From assembly GCF_016839145.1 (NCBI RefSeq), contig NZ_CP069303.1:4455001-4519000 (forward strand): DNA of 64,000 bases, given 5' to 3'. The position numbers were made by a program, and so were the translations under genes. The notes beneath the pieces are model-generated. The model saw only the letters and a program-made list of their open reading frames with translations. It did not search any database and was not told the origin of the DNA. The DNA comes from Shinella sp. PSBB067 (lineage in GTDB: Bacteria > Pseudomonadota > Alphaproteobacteria > Rhizobiales > Rhizobiaceae). Below are positions 51,318-59,576 of the stretch, piece by piece (the stretch's first letter is position 1; each line of letters starts with the position of its first letter).

Positions 51318-52199
51318 ATGTCGAGCATTCTCACCAACACGTCTGCAATCTCCGCCCTGCAGACCCTGCGCACCATCAACAACGACATGGAAACGACGCA
51401 GGACCGTATTTCCTCGGGCATGCGCGTCGGCGCAGCCAAGGACAACGCTGCCTACTGGTCGATCGCGACCACCATGCGCTCTGACAACGCCGCCCTTTCC
51501 GCCGTCCAGGACGCCCTCGGTCTCGGCGCCGCCAAGGTTGACACCGCCTATGCCGGCGTGACTGCGGCCATCGACGTCGTCAAGGAAATCAAGTCCAAGC
51601 TCGTCACCGCCACCGAACAGGGTGTCGACCGCGCCAAGGTCGGCGAGGAAATCAAGCAGCTTCAGGATCAGCTCCGCAGCATCGGCGCTGGCGCTGCCTT
51701 CGGCGGTGAAAACTGGATCGCCGGCGGCGCCGCAGATGCGACGATCGTCACCGGCTTCACGCGCGGCTCCGACGGCACCGTGAAGGTGACCACCGCGTCC
51801 TACGATGCGGCTGCCAACTCGCTCTTCGGCGATTACGATCCGGCCACCGGCACGGTTGCCGATGACGGCCTGCTGGCTGAAGTTCTGGCCATCACGCTCG
51901 ACGGCACCACCGACGACGCCGCCGTGGCCGGCTTCCTCGACAACGTCGAAGACAATCTGGCCAAGGCCCAGACCGTCGGTTCGACGCTCGGTTCGCTCTC
52001 CAAGCGCATCAGCCTCCAGGAAGACTTCGCCTCGAAGCTGTCCGACGCCATCGACAAGGGCGTAGGCCGCCTCGTCGACGCCGACATGAACGAGGAGTCG
52101 ACCCGCCTGAAGGCGCTGCAGACCCAGCAGCAGCTCGCCATCCAGTCGCTGTCGATCGCGAACTCCAACTCGCAGAACATCCTCTCGCTGTTCCGTTAA
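51318..52199 (+). CDS. flaA: Flagellin (first of three)
   Basis: 293 residues. N-terminal D0/D1 sequence (ILTNTSAISALQTLRTINND; KDNAAYWSIATTMRSDNAAL) and C-terminal D1/D0 sequence (RLVDADMNEESTRLKALQTQ; QSLSIANSNSQNILSLFR) are full. The middle (about 140-220) is short and variable. No Cys. By position it corresponds to flaA in Sinorhizobium; the symbol is by order only. Confidence 0.93.
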   Translation: MSSILTNTSAISALQTLRTINNDMETTQDRISSGMRVGAAKDNAAYWSIATTMRSDNAALSAVQDALGLGAAKVDTAYAGVTAAIDVVKEIKSKLVTATEQGVDRAKVGEEIKQLQDQLRSIGAGAAFGGENWIAGGAADATIVTGFTRGSDGTVKVTTASYDAAANSLFGDYDPATGTVADDGLLAEVLAITLDGTTDDAAVAGFLDNVEDNLAKAQTVGSTLGSLSKRISLQEDFASKLSDAIDKGVGRLVDADMNEESTRLKALQTQQQLAIQSLSIANSNSQNILSLFR

Positions 52200-52454: not shown

Positions 52455-53432
52455 ATGACGAGCATTCTGACCAATGTTGCGGCCATGTCCGCTCTCCAGA
52501 CGCTGCGTACCATCGGCAACGACATGGAAACCACGCAGGCTCATGTCTCCTCCGGCATGCGCGTCGGCGAGGCGAAGGACAATGCCGCTTACTGGTCCAT
52601 TGCCACGACCATGCGCTCCGACAACAAGGCGCTGTCGGCCGTCCAGGACGCCCTCGGCCTCGGCGCCGCAAAGGTCGACACGGCCTATGCCGGCATGAAC
52701 GCTGCCATCGACGTCGTCAAGGAAATCAAGGCCAAGATTACCGCCGCCACCGAACAGGGCGTCGACAAGGCCAAGGTCCAGGAAGAAATCAAGCAGCTCC
52801 AGCAGCAGCTCGAATCCATCGCCAGCGGCGCTTCCTTCAACGGCCAGAACTGGCTCGTCTACGACGACACGGTCGACACCGTCGCCGACAAGACGGTCGT
52901 CTCCGGCTTCGTCCGCGCCGCCGACGGCACCGTGAAGGTCAGCACCACGACCTACACGCTCGCCAACACGCCGGACGTTGCCAACGGCGACAACTCGAAC
53001 GTTCTCTTCACCAAGCTCAACGACGGCACCGACCCGACCAGCGGCGGTATCCTCGGTTCGGAAGCCGGTGCCCTGGGCGTGACCCCGGTCTCGACCACCT
53101 GGGACAGCACGACGACCGTCGTCAGCATGGACATCACGGATTACACCGACGAAGACATGGCCGACGCCCTGTCGCTTGTCGAAGCCGCCTTCCAGCAGAT
53201 GACCAAGGCCGCCTCGCAGCTCGGCTCGATCTCCATGCGCATCGGCCTGCAGGAAGACTTCGCCAACCGACTGACCGACGCCATCGACAAGGGCATCGGC
53301 CGCCTGGTCGACGCCGACATGAACGAAGAGTCCACGCGCCTCAAGGCCCTGCAGACCCAGCAGCAGCTCGGCATCCAGTCCCTGTCGATCGCCAATTCTT
53401 CGGCAGAAGGCATCCTCTCGCTCTTCCGTTGA
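52455..53432 (+). CDS. flaB: Flagellin (second of three)
   Basis: 325 residues with intact N-terminal (ILTNVAAMSALQTLRTIGND) and C-terminal (GIQSLSIANSSAEGILSLFR) polymerisation regions. The central part (about 135-225) is Thr/Ser/Asp-rich and different from the first flagellin, and offers many Ser/Thr sites for O-glycosylation. No Cys. Confidence 0.94.
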   Translation: MTSILTNVAAMSALQTLRTIGNDMETTQAHVSSGMRVGEAKDNAAYWSIATTMRSDNKALSAVQDALGLGAAKVDTAYAGMNAAIDVVKEIKAKITAATEQGVDKAKVQEEIKQLQQQLESIASGASFNGQNWLVYDDTVDTVADKTVVSGFVRAADGTVKVSTTTYTLANTPDVANGDNSNVLFTKLNDGTDPTSGGILGSEAGALGVTPVSTTWDSTTTVVSMDITDYTDEDMADALSLVEAAFQQMTKAASQLGSISMRIGLQEDFANRLTDAIDKGIGRLVDADMNEESTRLKALQTQQQLGIQSLSIANSSAEGILSLFR

Positions 53433-53490: not shown

Positions 53491-54669
<1,179 letters not shown>

Positions 54670-56727
54670 CTACCGCCCGGCCGCCGCCGGCCAGAGGCGG
54701 GAATCGGGCGGAATCGGCGCGAAGTCGTCGAGGGCCGCCAGTTGCGCGCGGTAGCGTGCGCGATAGGCCGCATCGTCCTCGAATTCGATGCCTTCGGCCG
54801 CGAGCTCGGCACCGATCTCGTAGTAGATGTCGAGGTTGCGCAGGTCCGGCACGGGCGTTTCTCCCCGTTCGGCATCGCCCTGCATCTGCCAGAACAGCTC
54901 TTCGAGACGCCGGGCGAGGGCGGGCATGTCGCGCAGCGGGCAGCTCTCGCGCTGGCTTTCGAGCGCTTCGCGCACGGCCGCAAGGCTTGCCCGGTCTTCG
55001 GCGAAGGCGATGGCCTTGCGCACGTAGTCATCAGGGCCGCTGCAAACCATTTCGGGAATGCCGGCGGCGGTGACGATGCTGGCGCAAAAGCGCGAGGAGA
55101 AGCTCTTGCCCGCGATGGTGAGGACGGGCAGGCCCTGCGTGACCGCATCGGCGGCGGTGGAATGCGCGCCATAGGGGAAGGTGTCGAGGAAGAGGTCGGC
55201 AAGGCCGATCCGCGCGAGATGGTCCGGGTTCACCGCCTTTCCGGCGAAGATCAGCCGGTCCGGCGCAATACCCGCCTCCTGCGCCAGCACGCGGAGGCGC
55301 TCGTTGGCGACGTCGTCGCCGGCGAGCAGCCAGAGCACGCTGCCGGGCGTCGCCGCCAGGATCGCCATCCATCGGGCAAAGCAGGCGGCGGTGACCTTCT
55401 GCATGCCGTTGAAGCTGGCAAAGACGAAGGCGTCCTCCGGCAGGCCGGCGGCCGTGCGGCTGGGCCGGGGGCTCACCGCACGCTTGCGGTCGACCGGCTG
55501 GTTGCAGGCGATGCGCAGGACCTTTTCCGTATAATAAAGCTCGTTTTCCGGCGGCACGATCGTCCCGTCGGCGATCATGTATTGATGGTACGGGCTTCCC
55601 ATCGTGCCGGGATAGCCGCAGAAATTCACGATCACCGGCGCGGGCCGATAGGCGAAGATCTTCGTGCGGGCGTGCTTGGTGTACCCGTTGACGTCGATAA
55701 GGATGTCGATCTCGTCCGCGACGATCTGCCGGGCGGCGTCGATGTCGCTGAGGGTGGCGATGTCGCGCCAATGGTCGACGGCCTGCCTGATGCGCGCCTG
55801 CGTCTGGTCGATCGGCGCCGGATCGCCGCAATAATAGGCGAAAATCTCGACGGACGACTTGTCGTGCAGTTCCAGCACCTCGCTCAGCGCGAAGCCCACG
55901 GCATGCTGGCGCAGGTCCGACGAGACGTAGCCGATGCGCAGGCGCTCGCCGCTGCCGGTCCTCTGCCGCACCGGTTTGCGCTCCAGCGCCGCAAGGTCGG
56001 CCGGCCGGCCGATGGTCTGGCGGCAATAGCGGTGTGCCTTCGCCATCTGGAACAGCGGATCGTCCGCATGGCAGGCGATCGACATGGCGGACATGGCGTC
56101 CATGAAGTGGCGGGTCGTGAGGTGGATGGACGGTGCGATGACGGGCCACTTGCACTGGCGCATCCGAAGCGAGATCCAGTGCTGCGCCGCTTCCGTGCGC
56201 GAGGGCTGCAGCTCCATCGCCTGCCAGAGCGCCGCCTCGGCCTCCTCCAGATGGCCGGTGCCTTCGAGCACGCGGCCGATGTGCTGGAGGGCGAGCAGCC
56301 GGTTGCCGAGCCGGTCGGGCGTCACCTCGGCCGTCGCATCGGCGAAGGTGCGCCACTGCTGCACGGCCTGGCCGGTCAGCCCGCAATCCTCCAGCGTCCG
56401 CCCGAGATTGATATGCGCCTGGCCGAAGAGCGGGCTCATCCGCACAGCCGCGCGCAGGGCATGCAGCGTGCCCGTGACGTCCCCGGCCTTGGAAAGCGAG
56501 ACGGCATAATTGAAATAGGCCAGATGCAGCAGCGGATTGGCGTCGTTGAAGGCGATCCACGTCTTGTAGAGCTCGATCGCCGCCGCCGTCTGGCCCGCCC
56601 CGGAAAGCGTCTCGGCCGTCTGGAACAGGTCTGCGAGCGAGAGCTGCTGCGTGCGCGCGCGCAGCAGGAGATGGAGGAACGACGCATTGGGATCGGGCGC
56701 GGAAGAGGGGCTGACGGTCATGGTCAT
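54670..56727 (-). CDS. TPR-GT41 glycosyltransferase, FlmG-like (probable flagellin O-glycosyltransferase)
   Basis: 685 residues. N-terminal TPR-like helices (about 30-200; AETLSGAGQTAAAIELYKTW, AHINLGRTLEDCGLTGQAVQ) are followed by a GT41 (SPINDLY/OGT) domain from about 265: GYVSSDLRQHAVGFALSEVL with the catalytic-area His, CGYPGTMGSPYHQYMIAD, FASFNGMQKVT, and LFLDTFPYGAHSTAADAV for sugar-nucleotide binding. Caulobacter FlmG has this same TPR plus GT41 layout and glycosylates flagellins with pseudaminic acid. The sugar used here is unknown; the adjoining glf gene supplies UDP-galactofuranose. Confidence 0.85.
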   Translation of the reverse strand: MTMTVSPSSAPDPNASFLHLLLRARTQQLSLADLFQTAETLSGAGQTAAAIELYKTWIAFNDANPLLHLAYFNYAVSLSKAGDVTGTLHALRAAVRMSPLFGQAHINLGRTLEDCGLTGQAVQQWRTFADATAEVTPDRLGNRLLALQHIGRVLEGTGHLEEAEAALWQAMELQPSRTEAAQHWISLRMRQCKWPVIAPSIHLTTRHFMDAMSAMSIACHADDPLFQMAKAHRYCRQTIGRPADLAALERKPVRQRTGSGERLRIGYVSSDLRQHAVGFALSEVLELHDKSSVEIFAYYCGDPAPIDQTQARIRQAVDHWRDIATLSDIDAARQIVADEIDILIDVNGYTKHARTKIFAYRPAPVIVNFCGYPGTMGSPYHQYMIADGTIVPPENELYYTEKVLRIACNQPVDRKRAVSPRPSRTAAGLPEDAFVFASFNGMQKVTAACFARWMAILAATPGSVLWLLAGDDVANERLRVLAQEAGIAPDRLIFAGKAVNPDHLARIGLADLFLDTFPYGAHSTAADAVTQGLPVLTIAGKSFSSRFCASIVTAAGIPEMVCSGPDDYVRKAIAFAEDRASLAAVREALESQRESCPLRDMPALARRLEELFWQMQGDAERGETPVPDLRNLDIYYEIGAELAAEGIEFEDDAAYRARYRAQLAALDDFAPIPPDSRLWPAAAGR

Positions 56728-56876
56728 CCTGCGGCAAGGGGCCGGCTGGCCGGGCTGTTGGACGGCTCGAAACGAGCGCGTCCCTTGCTAGCAATGCAGC
56801 CTTGTCTCGGGCTGGCCGATTTCTGCGGACTGCGGGAACACGGGCAATCTATTAATTGTAAATTAAAGGTTGTGAC

Positions 56877-56984
56877 CTAACAATCCAGCCAGTCGCGGAT
56901 CTCGTGGCTGCTGGCATAGGGATCGGGTCCGTTTTCGGCGGCCCGGAAGCATGACGCCCCGATGCACAGGCTCGTGCGAGCCAT
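56877..56984 (-). CDS. Small Cys-containing protein, 35 aa
   Basis: ATG 56984 follows AAGGAGGAC, a strong ribosome site. The product (MARTSLCIGASCFRAAENGP, then a short acidic end closing WLDC) has three Cys. It lies between the GT41 gene and the repeat protein, in an otherwise empty gap. A real but unknown small gene is likely; chance cannot be excluded. Confidence 0.4.
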   Translation of the reverse strand: MARTSLCIGASCFRAAENGPDPYASSHEIRDWLDC

Positions 56985-57123
56985 GTCCTCCTTAATTTTC
57001 CTCGTCTGCAGGATTCCAGAGCGCTTTGTCCACTGGGAGCCGCTGTGGCTTGAAGCGTGAACGCTCGGGCGCCGAATTTTCGGCGGGGAAGTAAATTTGG
57101 CACAGCATTGAGGTAGCACACTC

Positions 57124-59274
57124 ATGTCGATTATTTCCGCCCTGAAACCCGATCAATTTGCACTCATCAAGACCGCTGACCTTGCAGGCCTGACGAAGGA
57201 AGACGTCAAGTCGCTCACGGCTGCGCAGATCAAGACGCTCGACAAGGACGAACTGGCCGAGCTCAACAAGGAAGGCCTTGCAGAGTTCAGCGCCGCCCAG
57301 TGGAAGGCCGTTTCGGCCGCTGCCGCATCCGGCCTCACGCCGGACCAGGTCGACGCGCTCGGCGACAAGGTCAGCCTTCTGTCCGCTGCCCAGATCAACG
57401 AAATCTACAAGGCCAGCGGTACGCTCAGCAACACGCAGGTGACCGCGCTGACGGCGACCCAGCTCAAGGCCCTCGACAAGGATGCCGTTTCGGCGATCCT
57501 GAACACGTCCGGCGCCACCTTCCAGCAGGGCGAGATCGAGGCCATCAGCACCAAGGTGATCTCCGAACTCAGCGATGCCGATCAGAAGGCCCTGCTCGTC
57601 CTCGGCGGCGCGGCTGACAATACGAAGGTGACCACCCTGACGGCCAAGCAGATCGCGGCGTTCAATCCCGTGATGGTCGGAACCCTCGAAGCCGCCGACT
57701 TCGCCGCGCTCAACACGACCCAGGTCAAGGCCTTCTCGGCCGCCCAGGTCAAGCTGATCAACATGGAGGAGTTCACCGCGAACTTCAAGGATCTCAGCGC
57801 CAAGCAGATCGCCGCGCTCGATGCCGATACCCAGATTGCAGGCCTGGCCAACGACCACCTGAAGGACCTCGACAAGACGCAGGTCGCAGCCTTCACGAAC
57901 GCGCAGGTCGCAAAGCTGGACATGACCGAATTGGGCGATCAGGTCCAGTTCTTCACGGCCAAGCAGATCGCAGCCATCGACACGACCAAGATTGCTGACG
58001 TCGATGTCACCAAGCTGAACGTGACCCAGGTCAAGGCATTCACGGCCGCGCAGTTGGTCGAGGTGGATTTCACCAAGTTCGGCAACGATGCTGACGGCAA
58101 GGACCAGCTCGCGGCCCTGACCACCAAGCAGCTCGCCGGTACCGGCATCGGCGCCAAGCTTGCGACGCTGAGCGGCACCCAGATCAAGAGCCTGACCCCG
58201 CAGCAGGTCGCTTCGCTGGGCAAGGACACGATCACCGCCCTGGCGGGTGCGGATCTCATCAAGGAGATGACCGACGGCCAGCTCAAGGCGATCAGCGTCA
58301 AGGCCATGGCCGGCCTGACTGACGCTCACATCGCCGACCTCGCGAAGGAACAGATCGCCGTTCTCACGGACAAGCAGATCGGTTCGCTGACCAAGGAACA
58401 GGCCGCCGGCCTGACCGGTGAGCTCGCCACGGCACTGACGAAGGACCAGATCGCCAAGATGAGCGCCGATGCGCTGTCCGCGATCTCGGCAGAAGACTTT
58501 GCGACCTTCGAGCCGGATGAAATCGCCGCCATCAGCACCAAGGCCCTCTCCGCTCTGGGCGCCAGCTACTTCGAAGCGCTGGCCGACACCGGCAACACCC
58601 TCGGCGACGCGCAGATCGCGGCCCTGACGGACAAGCAGGTCAAGGCCCTGAACGATACCCAGCTCAAGGCTCTTGGCGACGGTATCGCGAAGCTGTCCGA
58701 CAACAGCTTCAAGGCGCTGTCGGCCAAGCAGATCGGCGGCCTGGCAGCCGGCCAGATTCCGAAGCTGAACGTGACGCTTCTGTCGCCGGCACAGGTTGCC
58801 GGGATGACGCCCACGCAGGTCGGCGAACTCGAGGACACCCAGATCAAGGCGCTGACGGAAGGTCAGATCAAGGCCCTGACCACGGCGCAGCTCTCGAGCA
58901 TGGAAGCCGATCAGGTCAAGGCGCTGGAAGTCGGGCAGATCGCATGGCTTACCGCAAAGCAGGTCGGCGCGCTGACGTCCACCCAGACCAAGGAGTTCAG
59001 CAAGGAGCAGGCCGAGGCCCTGACGACCGCCCAGATCGGCAGCCTCTCGGCTGACGCGGTCGGTGGCTTCACGGACGAAGCTCTTGCCAACTTCACGGTC
59101 GGCGACATCACCCTGATCAGCACCAAGGCCATCTCCGGCCTGAAGGAAGAGCAGCTCGCCCAGCTGAGCGCCGATCAGATCAAGGAGTTCTCCGACAAGC
59201 AGGTCGCCGCCATGACCAACCAGGTCCTGATGAAGGTGATCGAAATGTACGCGGAGAACAACACCACCCCGTAA
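57124..59274 (+). CDS. Octapeptide-repeat protein, 716 aa, unknown
   Basis: Almost the whole protein is a chain of eight-residue units of the form L-T/S/D-x-x-Q-I/V/L-x-A, for example LTDKQVKA, LTAKQVGA, LTEGQIKA, LTTAQIGS, LSADQIKE. Roughly 75-85 units can be counted, a few of them seven or nine residues long. No Cys, no signal peptide, no membrane helix. Such regular short repeats suggest a helical solenoid or fibre. The gene has its own promoter gap and terminator, and sits between the glycosylation genes and the third flagellin, so a surface or filament-linked role is possible. It is not RTX, pentapeptide or ordinary leucine-rich repeat. The family is not recognised. Confidence 0.75.
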   Translation: MSIISALKPDQFALIKTADLAGLTKEDVKSLTAAQIKTLDKDELAELNKEGLAEFSAAQWKAVSAAAASGLTPDQVDALGDKVSLLSAAQINEIYKASGTLSNTQVTALTATQLKALDKDAVSAILNTSGATFQQGEIEAISTKVISELSDADQKALLVLGGAADNTKVTTLTAKQIAAFNPVMVGTLEAADFAALNTTQVKAFSAAQVKLINMEEFTANFKDLSAKQIAALDADTQIAGLANDHLKDLDKTQVAAFTNAQVAKLDMTELGDQVQFFTAKQIAAIDTTKIADVDVTKLNVTQVKAFTAAQLVEVDFTKFGNDADGKDQLAALTTKQLAGTGIGAKLATLSGTQIKSLTPQQVASLGKDTITALAGADLIKEMTDGQLKAISVKAMAGLTDAHIADLAKEQIAVLTDKQIGSLTKEQAAGLTGELATALTKDQIAKMSADALSAISAEDFATFEPDEIAAISTKALSALGASYFEALADTGNTLGDAQIAALTDKQVKALNDTQLKALGDGIAKLSDNSFKALSAKQIGGLAAGQIPKLNVTLLSPAQVAGMTPTQVGELEDTQIKALTEGQIKALTTAQLSSMEADQVKALEVGQIAWLTAKQVGALTSTQTKEFSKEQAEALTTAQIGSLSADAVGGFTDEALANFTVGDITLISTKAISGLKEEQLAQLSADQIKEFSDKQVAAMTNQVLMKVIEMYAENNTTP

Positions 59275-59308
59275 GGCCCTTCGGCCTGCGGAAATCTCCG
59301 GGAACAAG

Positions 59309-59336
59309 CGGCGCGACCTCGGTCGCGCCGTTTCTC
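59309..59336 (+). terminator. Terminator after the repeat-protein gene
   Basis: CGGCGCGACC (59309-59318), TC, GGTCGCGCCG (59321-59330), then TTTCTCGTT. Confidence 0.75.
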
Positions 59337-59400
59337 GTTCGTGCCGCCCGCTGCAAGTTCTGCCCATGGAAAATTCAGGATTTCTTCATCGACCTTACCG

Positions 59401-59576
59401 GTTCCTTAACGCCATTAACCTTTTGTTAACCATTACCCGTTAACCAGTCGTTAAGAACGACGGACTGGCGCCCAGGGCAAACGAGTGGCGCCGGATGCAT
59501 GAAGCCCTCGGTCGTTACCGGTTCCCGCCTCACTCCGGCATGTCCCGACAAACTCCTTCTCCAGGGCAAGTGCCAA
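59401..59576 (+). promoter_or_regulatory. Third flagellin promoter: two CtrA boxes and flagellar element
   Basis: Two exact TTAA-N7-TTAA sites lie at 59415-59429 and 59440-59454. The flagellar element (GCATGA-A-GCC...CGTTACCGGT) is at 59497-59522, and CCGGCATGTCCC at 59535-59546, 30 bases before the start. The rest of the 302-base gap after 59274 is the preceding terminator and A/T-rich DNA. Confidence 0.6.

Follow-up and report, generated by a model that had tools for sequence, protein, structure and literature searches.

An ALTTAQ-repeat protein encoded beside a TPR-GT41 glycosyltransferase gene in the flagellin locus of Shinella sp. PSBB067

The repeat protein P0001 and its locus

The window, i.e. 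the whole stretch of 64,000 nucleotides of Shinella sp. PSBB067 that was analyzed, contains on its plus strand a gene (57124..59274) running from an ATG start to a TAA stop codon and encoding P0001, a protein of 716 amino acids without any cysteine. A divergent gene on the minus strand (54670..56727; PF13844, E 2e-69, plus TPR) encodes a TPR-GT41 glycosyltransferase of 685 amino acids, the usual partner of this repeat protein in relatives. According to the coordinates of both ORFs, the two genes are separated by an intergenic region of 396 bases (56728..57123). The GT41 gene is followed on the same strand by glf (53491..54648; PF03275, E 2.4e-75), a common third gene of the cassette, whose product is a UDP-galactopyranose mutase of 385 amino acids. 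From the ORF list and flagellin matches, two flagellin genes were located at 51318..52199 and 52455..53432 (both plus strand). A further one from the ORF list lies downstream of P0001 (59577..60554, plus strand) and is a neighbour not established as part of the system; its start was chosen by likeness to other flagellins, the listed ORF opening upstream at 59499. A sequence-only reading of this DNA had already noted the lack of cysteine and the position of P0001 between glycosylation genes and a flagellin gene, and both observations were confirmed. It had also assigned P0001 a terminator of its own. A strong hairpin of 71 bases does follow the stop codon (59275..59345, plus strand; MFE -37.9, z -3.6), but it has a weak T tail and was absent from the consensus terminator scan, making a terminator at this site plausible only. 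A long ORF antisense to P0001 was judged to be a high-GC artefact.

Formal repeat analysis bore out the proposed period of eight residues. Identity autocorrelation peaked at lags of 8, 16, 24 and 32 (z 10.7, 7.2, 7.9 and 5.6 against 200 shuffles), and a fitted 8-position profile delimited 70 units covering 560 of the 716 residues, with a start-to-start spacing of exactly eight in 53 of 69 cases. The profile score was 660, compared to 227 ± 22 (maximum 268) for 50 shuffles. While the octad array as such thus stood, the earlier figure of about 80 consecutive units proved somewhat high and the array is interrupted by breaks. The unit consensus reads L-[T/S]-x-x-Q-[I/V/L]-[A/K]-A. A tandem-repeat check of the gene revealed no tandem array at the DNA level, suggesting that the repeat array is old.

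The view that no short-repeat family fits P0001 had to be abandoned. The protein matches the Pfam family PF20080 (ALTTAQ repeat, ALTTAQ_rpt) in 21 separate stretches (E 6.3e-53), scores 176.6 bits against a gathering cut-off of 26.4 and shows the tandem octads with the L-T/S-x-x-Q-I/V core. Judged by these sequence traits, it belongs to a repeat family that has already been described. Among the seven Pfam repeat families listed for P0001, PF20080 was the only one above its cut-off; LRR_EndoS reached 14 bits (cut-off 27.9) and TAL_effector 11.3 bits (cut-off 28). Compared to other members, P0001 is shorter than most of those examined, more charged and poorer in serine and threonine, i.e. it is a short, divergent ALTTAQ protein. 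The longest ALTTAQ open frames extend up to 6436 residues, and in some plasmid records members of the family are annotated as heme utilization or adhesion proteins.

An AlphaFold model of P0001 (mb12657d14056; pLDDT 87.3), predicted from a three-sequence alignment, comprises approximately one short helix per unit, in agreement with the regular solenoid suggested previously. In this prediction, DSSP assigned 76 helices of at least four residues to the 716 residues; most span four to six residues and about eight are longer. The predicted one-helix-per-unit alpha-solenoid resembles armadillo, importin-alpha and mesothelin in that helices are stacked in a solenoid. A further counterpart may be HeliScrew4 (PDB 9zem, 120 amino acids), which matched residues 353-466 of P0001 in a phmmer search (E 2.2e-13) and consists of octads of the same kind. 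The likeness was drawn from the molecule name and the sequence match, and a one-helix alpha-solenoid with one short helix per octad is also what the P0001 model predicts. Entry 9zem was absent among the 50 Foldseek matches listed for the model, and no publication on HeliScrew4 was found in a literature search.

Linkage of ALTTAQ and GT41 genes

For the genomic context of the family, ORF picking followed a custom GC-frame rule, and proteins dense in the repeat motif were called as ALTTAQ. Among 61 genomes, 24 gave ALTTAQ matches. All of these 24 genomes, compared to none of the other 37, possess a homologue of the GT41 gene (E <= 4.8e-194), weaker GT41 matches alone being present in seven of the 37. 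The two genes are adjacent in 22 of the 24 genomes; counted as neighbours were also G023, in which two small ORFs separate them, and G034, in which there is a fragment at a contig edge. G002 and G020 have kept the GT41 gene and lack an adjacent ALTTAQ gene.

A scan of the named genomes with the GT41 alignment yielded 255 confirmed GT41 stretches, the best 80 of which were analyzed. Within flanks of up to 10 kb a side, 74 of these 80 loci contain ALTTAQ; the exceptions are L104, L109, L111, L113, L133 and L172, with L109 and L133 being shorter than 6 kb. No picked ORF intervenes in 72 of the 74 loci. The nearest ALTTAQ gene lies upstream of GT41 in 68 of the 74, half of them co-directional and half divergent, so that the layout seen at P0001 recurs in 34 of the 74. 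The glf gene was found in 67 of the best 80 loci, and two further gene clusters in 37 and 15 of them; a single scanned member of each cluster matched PF12248 and an NAD-dependent epimerase family, respectively. P0001 is not isolated in being encoded with a TPR-GT41 gene, as would be expected of a GT41-glycosylated exoprotein, and the conserved partner of ALTTAQ genes is the adjacent TPR-GT41 gene rather than flagellin. The cluster found in 37 loci is represented by a gene of about 420 residues downstream of GT41 (L132:12139-13401 and kin), which may encode an additional cassette enzyme. Two tandem ALTTAQ genes adjoin GT41 in L043 (G013; 514 and 806 residues) and in L044 (G016; 516 and 943 residues).

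Outside the near relatives, PF20080 was detected in six of 385 genomes of the class and in 21 of 398 genomes of the phylum, the Shinella genome included in each. Apart from it, 24 of the 25 positive genomes were examined (G608 was left out), and 11 of the 24 have a GT41 gene in the fetched ALTTAQ stretch (G263, G235, G331, G758, G470, G475, G479, G505, G532, G560 and G775), whereas 0.40 would be expected by random placement, a calculation that used halved Pfam match counts as gene numbers, and rounded genome sizes. For the genomes with two loci (G263, G235, G758, G475 and G532) the GT41-bearing locus was used in this count, and for G479 two adjoining stretches; counted by locus, the proportion is 11 of 28. 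L210 and L246, which have no ALTTAQ ORF according to the motif-density rule, were counted as misses. TPR-only proteins can also match the GT41 profile, and G529 was rejected as a case of this kind; G508 was rejected because its GT41 lies outside the stretch, though on the same contig. Seventeen of the 28 loci have no GT41 gene, some of them on short contigs, while the contig is not short for G100, G795 and one locus of the pair fetched for each of G263, G235 and G758. A genome search at E <= 1e-10 revealed no GT41 gene in G795, G613 and G201. Eight of 56 plasmid records, chosen mainly outside Rhizobiaceae, contain GT41 in six cases and type I secretion system (T1SS) genes in four; the TPR proteins on four Cereibacter and Pseudomonas plasmids and the Rhodovastum glycosyltransferase were confirmed as GT41, and no GT41 was present near ALTTAQ on the Thioclava plasmid record. 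One G263 locus (L206:1-14408) has a GT41 gene sandwiched by two large ALTTAQ ORFs.

The distant loci devoid of GT41, and the solitary GT41 genes of G002 and G020, would suit the assumption that ALTTAQ genes reside near GT41 without functional coupling, as old neighbours or as part of a mobile cassette. The fast evolution of P0001 would suit it as well: among 20 same-genus relatives, full-length orthologues occur only in G008 and G019, where the gene order is unchanged and the protein is 52% identical to P0001, compared to 77% for GT41. Nevertheless, the linkage recurs across Alpha- and Gammaproteobacteria in differing gene order and strand, and the strict co-occurrence among the 61 genomes is hard to reconcile with a mere passenger. 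Moreover, comparison of the two close orthologues (G008 and G019) gave a dN/dS of 0.15, and comparison of P0001 with one of them gave 0.46 (0.07 and 0.19 for the corresponding GT41 comparisons), values by which the reading frame of P0001 is under selection. A passenger role is therefore considered very unlikely.

The flagellin neighbourhood

The position within the flagellin locus raises the possibility that P0001 coats or decorates the filament and leaves the cell by flagellar or type I export. The ALTTAQ-GT41 pair has this position in the Shinella genome studied here (G000) as well as in G008 and G019, and flagellar genes also lie near ALTTAQ genes in Pseudorhizobium flavum, Rhodovastum and G263. 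On a GT41 tree (quick search without bootstrap; 86 rows, namely the window, the 80 loci and five additional ones) the flagellin position requires three changes, the groups concerned being the main Shinella group with Pseudorhizobium, Shinella fusca, and Ectorhizobium. By contrast, the flanks of 67 of the best 80 GT41 loci are free of flagellar genes, and 62 of the 80 combine ALTTAQ with the absence of flagellar genes. The pair is located away from the flagellin locus in G016 and G023, and 13 of the 61 genomes have flagellin matches and no ALTTAQ match. A linkage to flagellar genes that is conserved among relatives, as expected of a filament protein or a flagellar export substrate, was thus not observed: only 13 of the 80 loci contain such genes, and there is no positive evidence for the flagellar export route that had been proposed. 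Nor can the flagellin neighbourhood be regarded as the conserved context of P0001, as its homologues keep GT41 instead. Besides, a GT41 that modifies flagellin would on its own account for this neighbourhood. Association of P0001 with the flagellum is accordingly rated as quite improbable, if somewhat less so than the passenger role.

Given the three changes on the GT41 tree, it is possible that the cassette became tied to flagellin secondarily. If the flagellin-locus positions are separate arrivals, the GT41 enzyme may, like FlmG of Caulobacter (PMC7591256; see below), serve flagellin too, and the flagellin neighbourhood would then be a property of the enzyme and not of the repeat protein.

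Some loci deserve mention in this context. On a plasmid of Rhodovastum atsumiense (L217) the ALTTAQ-GT41 pair is situated a few kb from annotated fliR, flhA, fliQ and fliE genes. In G263, a 3226-residue ALTTAQ ORF (L205:4991-14671) lies near genes that resemble fliQ, fliR and flhB in sequence. G005, a genome of the same genus without ALTTAQ, carries a different GT41 gene (L096; 36% identical) in its flagellin locus, between fliP and the first flagellin gene.

Candidate export, glycosylation and biological role

Genes for type I secretion accompany ALTTAQ and GT41 in G235, G331, Cereibacter sphaeroides and two Pseudomonas plasmids, and likewise in G470, G475, G479, G505, G560 and G775; in G508 they accompany ALTTAQ. 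Some of the scanned loci went into the GT41, T1SS, HlyD and TolC profiles, for which reason L206, L207, L209, L212-L215 and L217 match them by construction, and the independent T1SS cases are G470, G475, G479, G505, G508, G560, G775, L158 and L179. Within Rhizobiaceae, ABC-HlyD pairs were present in only two of 113 stretches (L158 and L179; the window is included and some stretches overlap). A profile search revealed no T1SS genes in the window, and the Shinella genome has three PrtD-type exporters above the NCBI cut-off, none of them near either of its two ALTTAQ genes. A C-terminal [IVL][IVLA]xx[YF] tail terminates 79 of 89 Rhizobiaceae proteins, compared to 33 of 7073 internal windows. Of an initial 100 proteins, 11 had been excluded (seven of non-Rhizobiaceae origin, four masked), and ORFs with a broken frame were retained. 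In some members the tail is present even after a low-complexity linker. As far as sequence can tell, it is consistent with an export signal at the C-terminus. Members from outside the Rhizobiaceae end differently and lack this pattern, and P0001 itself keeps VIxxYAExN, while it lacks the usual hydrophobic end and its final residues are not those typically found. The type I export proposed earlier thus gained support from the T1SS genes of relatives, from which we infer it for P0001.

The same data bear on the main rival explanation, according to which the ALTTAQ protein is not a substrate but a scaffold, regulator or binding partner of the cytosolic GT41, e.g. one that adjusts the glycosylation of flagellin, and does not leave the cell. 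Tight linkage to GT41 would be expected of a partner no less than of a substrate, exporter genes are rare in the Rhizobiaceae stretches scanned, and no signal peptide was seen in P0001 by eye. The composition of P0001 points in the same direction. Serine and threonine make up 16% of its residues, a value at or below which only two of 100 members lie, P0001 counted, and its charged fraction of 21% is the highest of the 100 (median 10%), which renders dense O-glycosylation of P0001 less likely. On the other hand, T1SS genes adjoin ALTTAQ in several separate lineages, frames of thousands of residues would be unusual for a regulator, and the C-terminal tail is preserved even behind a linker. An intracellular partner is therefore regarded as unlikely, though less so than the alternatives considered above. 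A high serine and threonine content is no evidence for glycosylation of the family either, since it was also found at ALTTAQ loci without GT41.

Two known systems provide precedents. According to PMC7591256, FlmG of Caulobacter crescentus is a glycosyltransferase of the cytosol that uses its N-terminal TPRs to bind the acceptor prior to export. It is thus a precedent for the TPR-GT41 enzyme, but its acceptor is flagellin and its donor pseudaminic acid, whereas here the solenoid is the candidate acceptor and glf is linked. HMW1C of Haemophilus, a GT41-family enzyme, glycosylates the large exoprotein HMW1 in the cytosol before export; as described in PMC3983070, it has an AAD fold replacing the TPRs and forms N-links, and HMW1 is exported via Sec and two-partner secretion. 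The ALTTAQ systems differ from it in the TPR-GT41 enzyme, the octad alpha-solenoid and the type I genes of relatives. HMW1-HMW1C is the nearest counterpart to the presumed working of the ALTTAQ systems, even though export and linkage type differ.

On this basis, we consider that there is an even chance that the ALTTAQ solenoid is glycosylated in the cytosol by the linked GT41, exported by a type I system and displayed as a surface or extracellular glycoprotein. Much of the family would work with a cytosolic TPR-GT41 O-glycosyltransferase encoded alongside, the sugar donor being made by Glf and sometimes by a GalE-like epimerase. The solenoid would be modified on serine and threonine residues in the cytosol and would then leave through an ABC/HlyD/TolC system without a signal peptide, probably to act as an adhesin or matrix protein, for example. 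In Shinella, where the cassette lies within the flagellin locus and GT41 may glycosylate flagellin too, the exporter could be an unlinked PrtD-type system. For P0001 itself, glycosylation and export are presumed, and its case is weaker than that of the family because of its low serine and threonine content, its high charge, its divergent orientation to GT41 and its altered tail end. A bolder version appears doubtful, but is still conceivable: the TPR-GT41 enzyme might read the octad solenoid and place sugars at regular turns, giving a type I-exported rod with a periodic glycan ladder, and the Shinella enzyme might serve both rod and flagellin, so that motility and surface coat would be linked through a single glycosyltransferase in a widespread, hitherto unreported system.

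No paper on a linkage of ALTTAQ, GT41 and type I genes was found in a search of a limited collection of papers. For an uncharacterised repeat family, the data lead to a testable hypothesis in which the enzyme is a cytosolic glycosyltransferase and its substrate a periodic solenoid, often together with an exporter. If correct, a further kind of GT41 acceptor would exist besides flagellin and HMW1-type adhesins, in Rhizobiaceae and beyond, and the regularity of an octad acceptor would make it a clean scaffold on which to study site choice by TPR glycosyltransferases.

Further observations concern individual loci. Directly upstream of GT41 and ALTTAQ in Rhizobium cremeum (L179:5950-9076) lie a type I ABC gene and an HlyD gene. 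In both L269 (G479) and L270 (G505), the GT41 profile matches three ORFs, each roughly 800-1300 residues long, in the vicinity of ALTTAQ and a type I system. The second ALTTAQ protein of the Shinella genome (G000:C1, about 80500-87000; L039:6312-13121) comprises approximately 2269 residues and has a Ser/Thr/Gly-rich linker followed by the family tail at its end; neither a GT41 nor a flagellar gene is labelled beside it.
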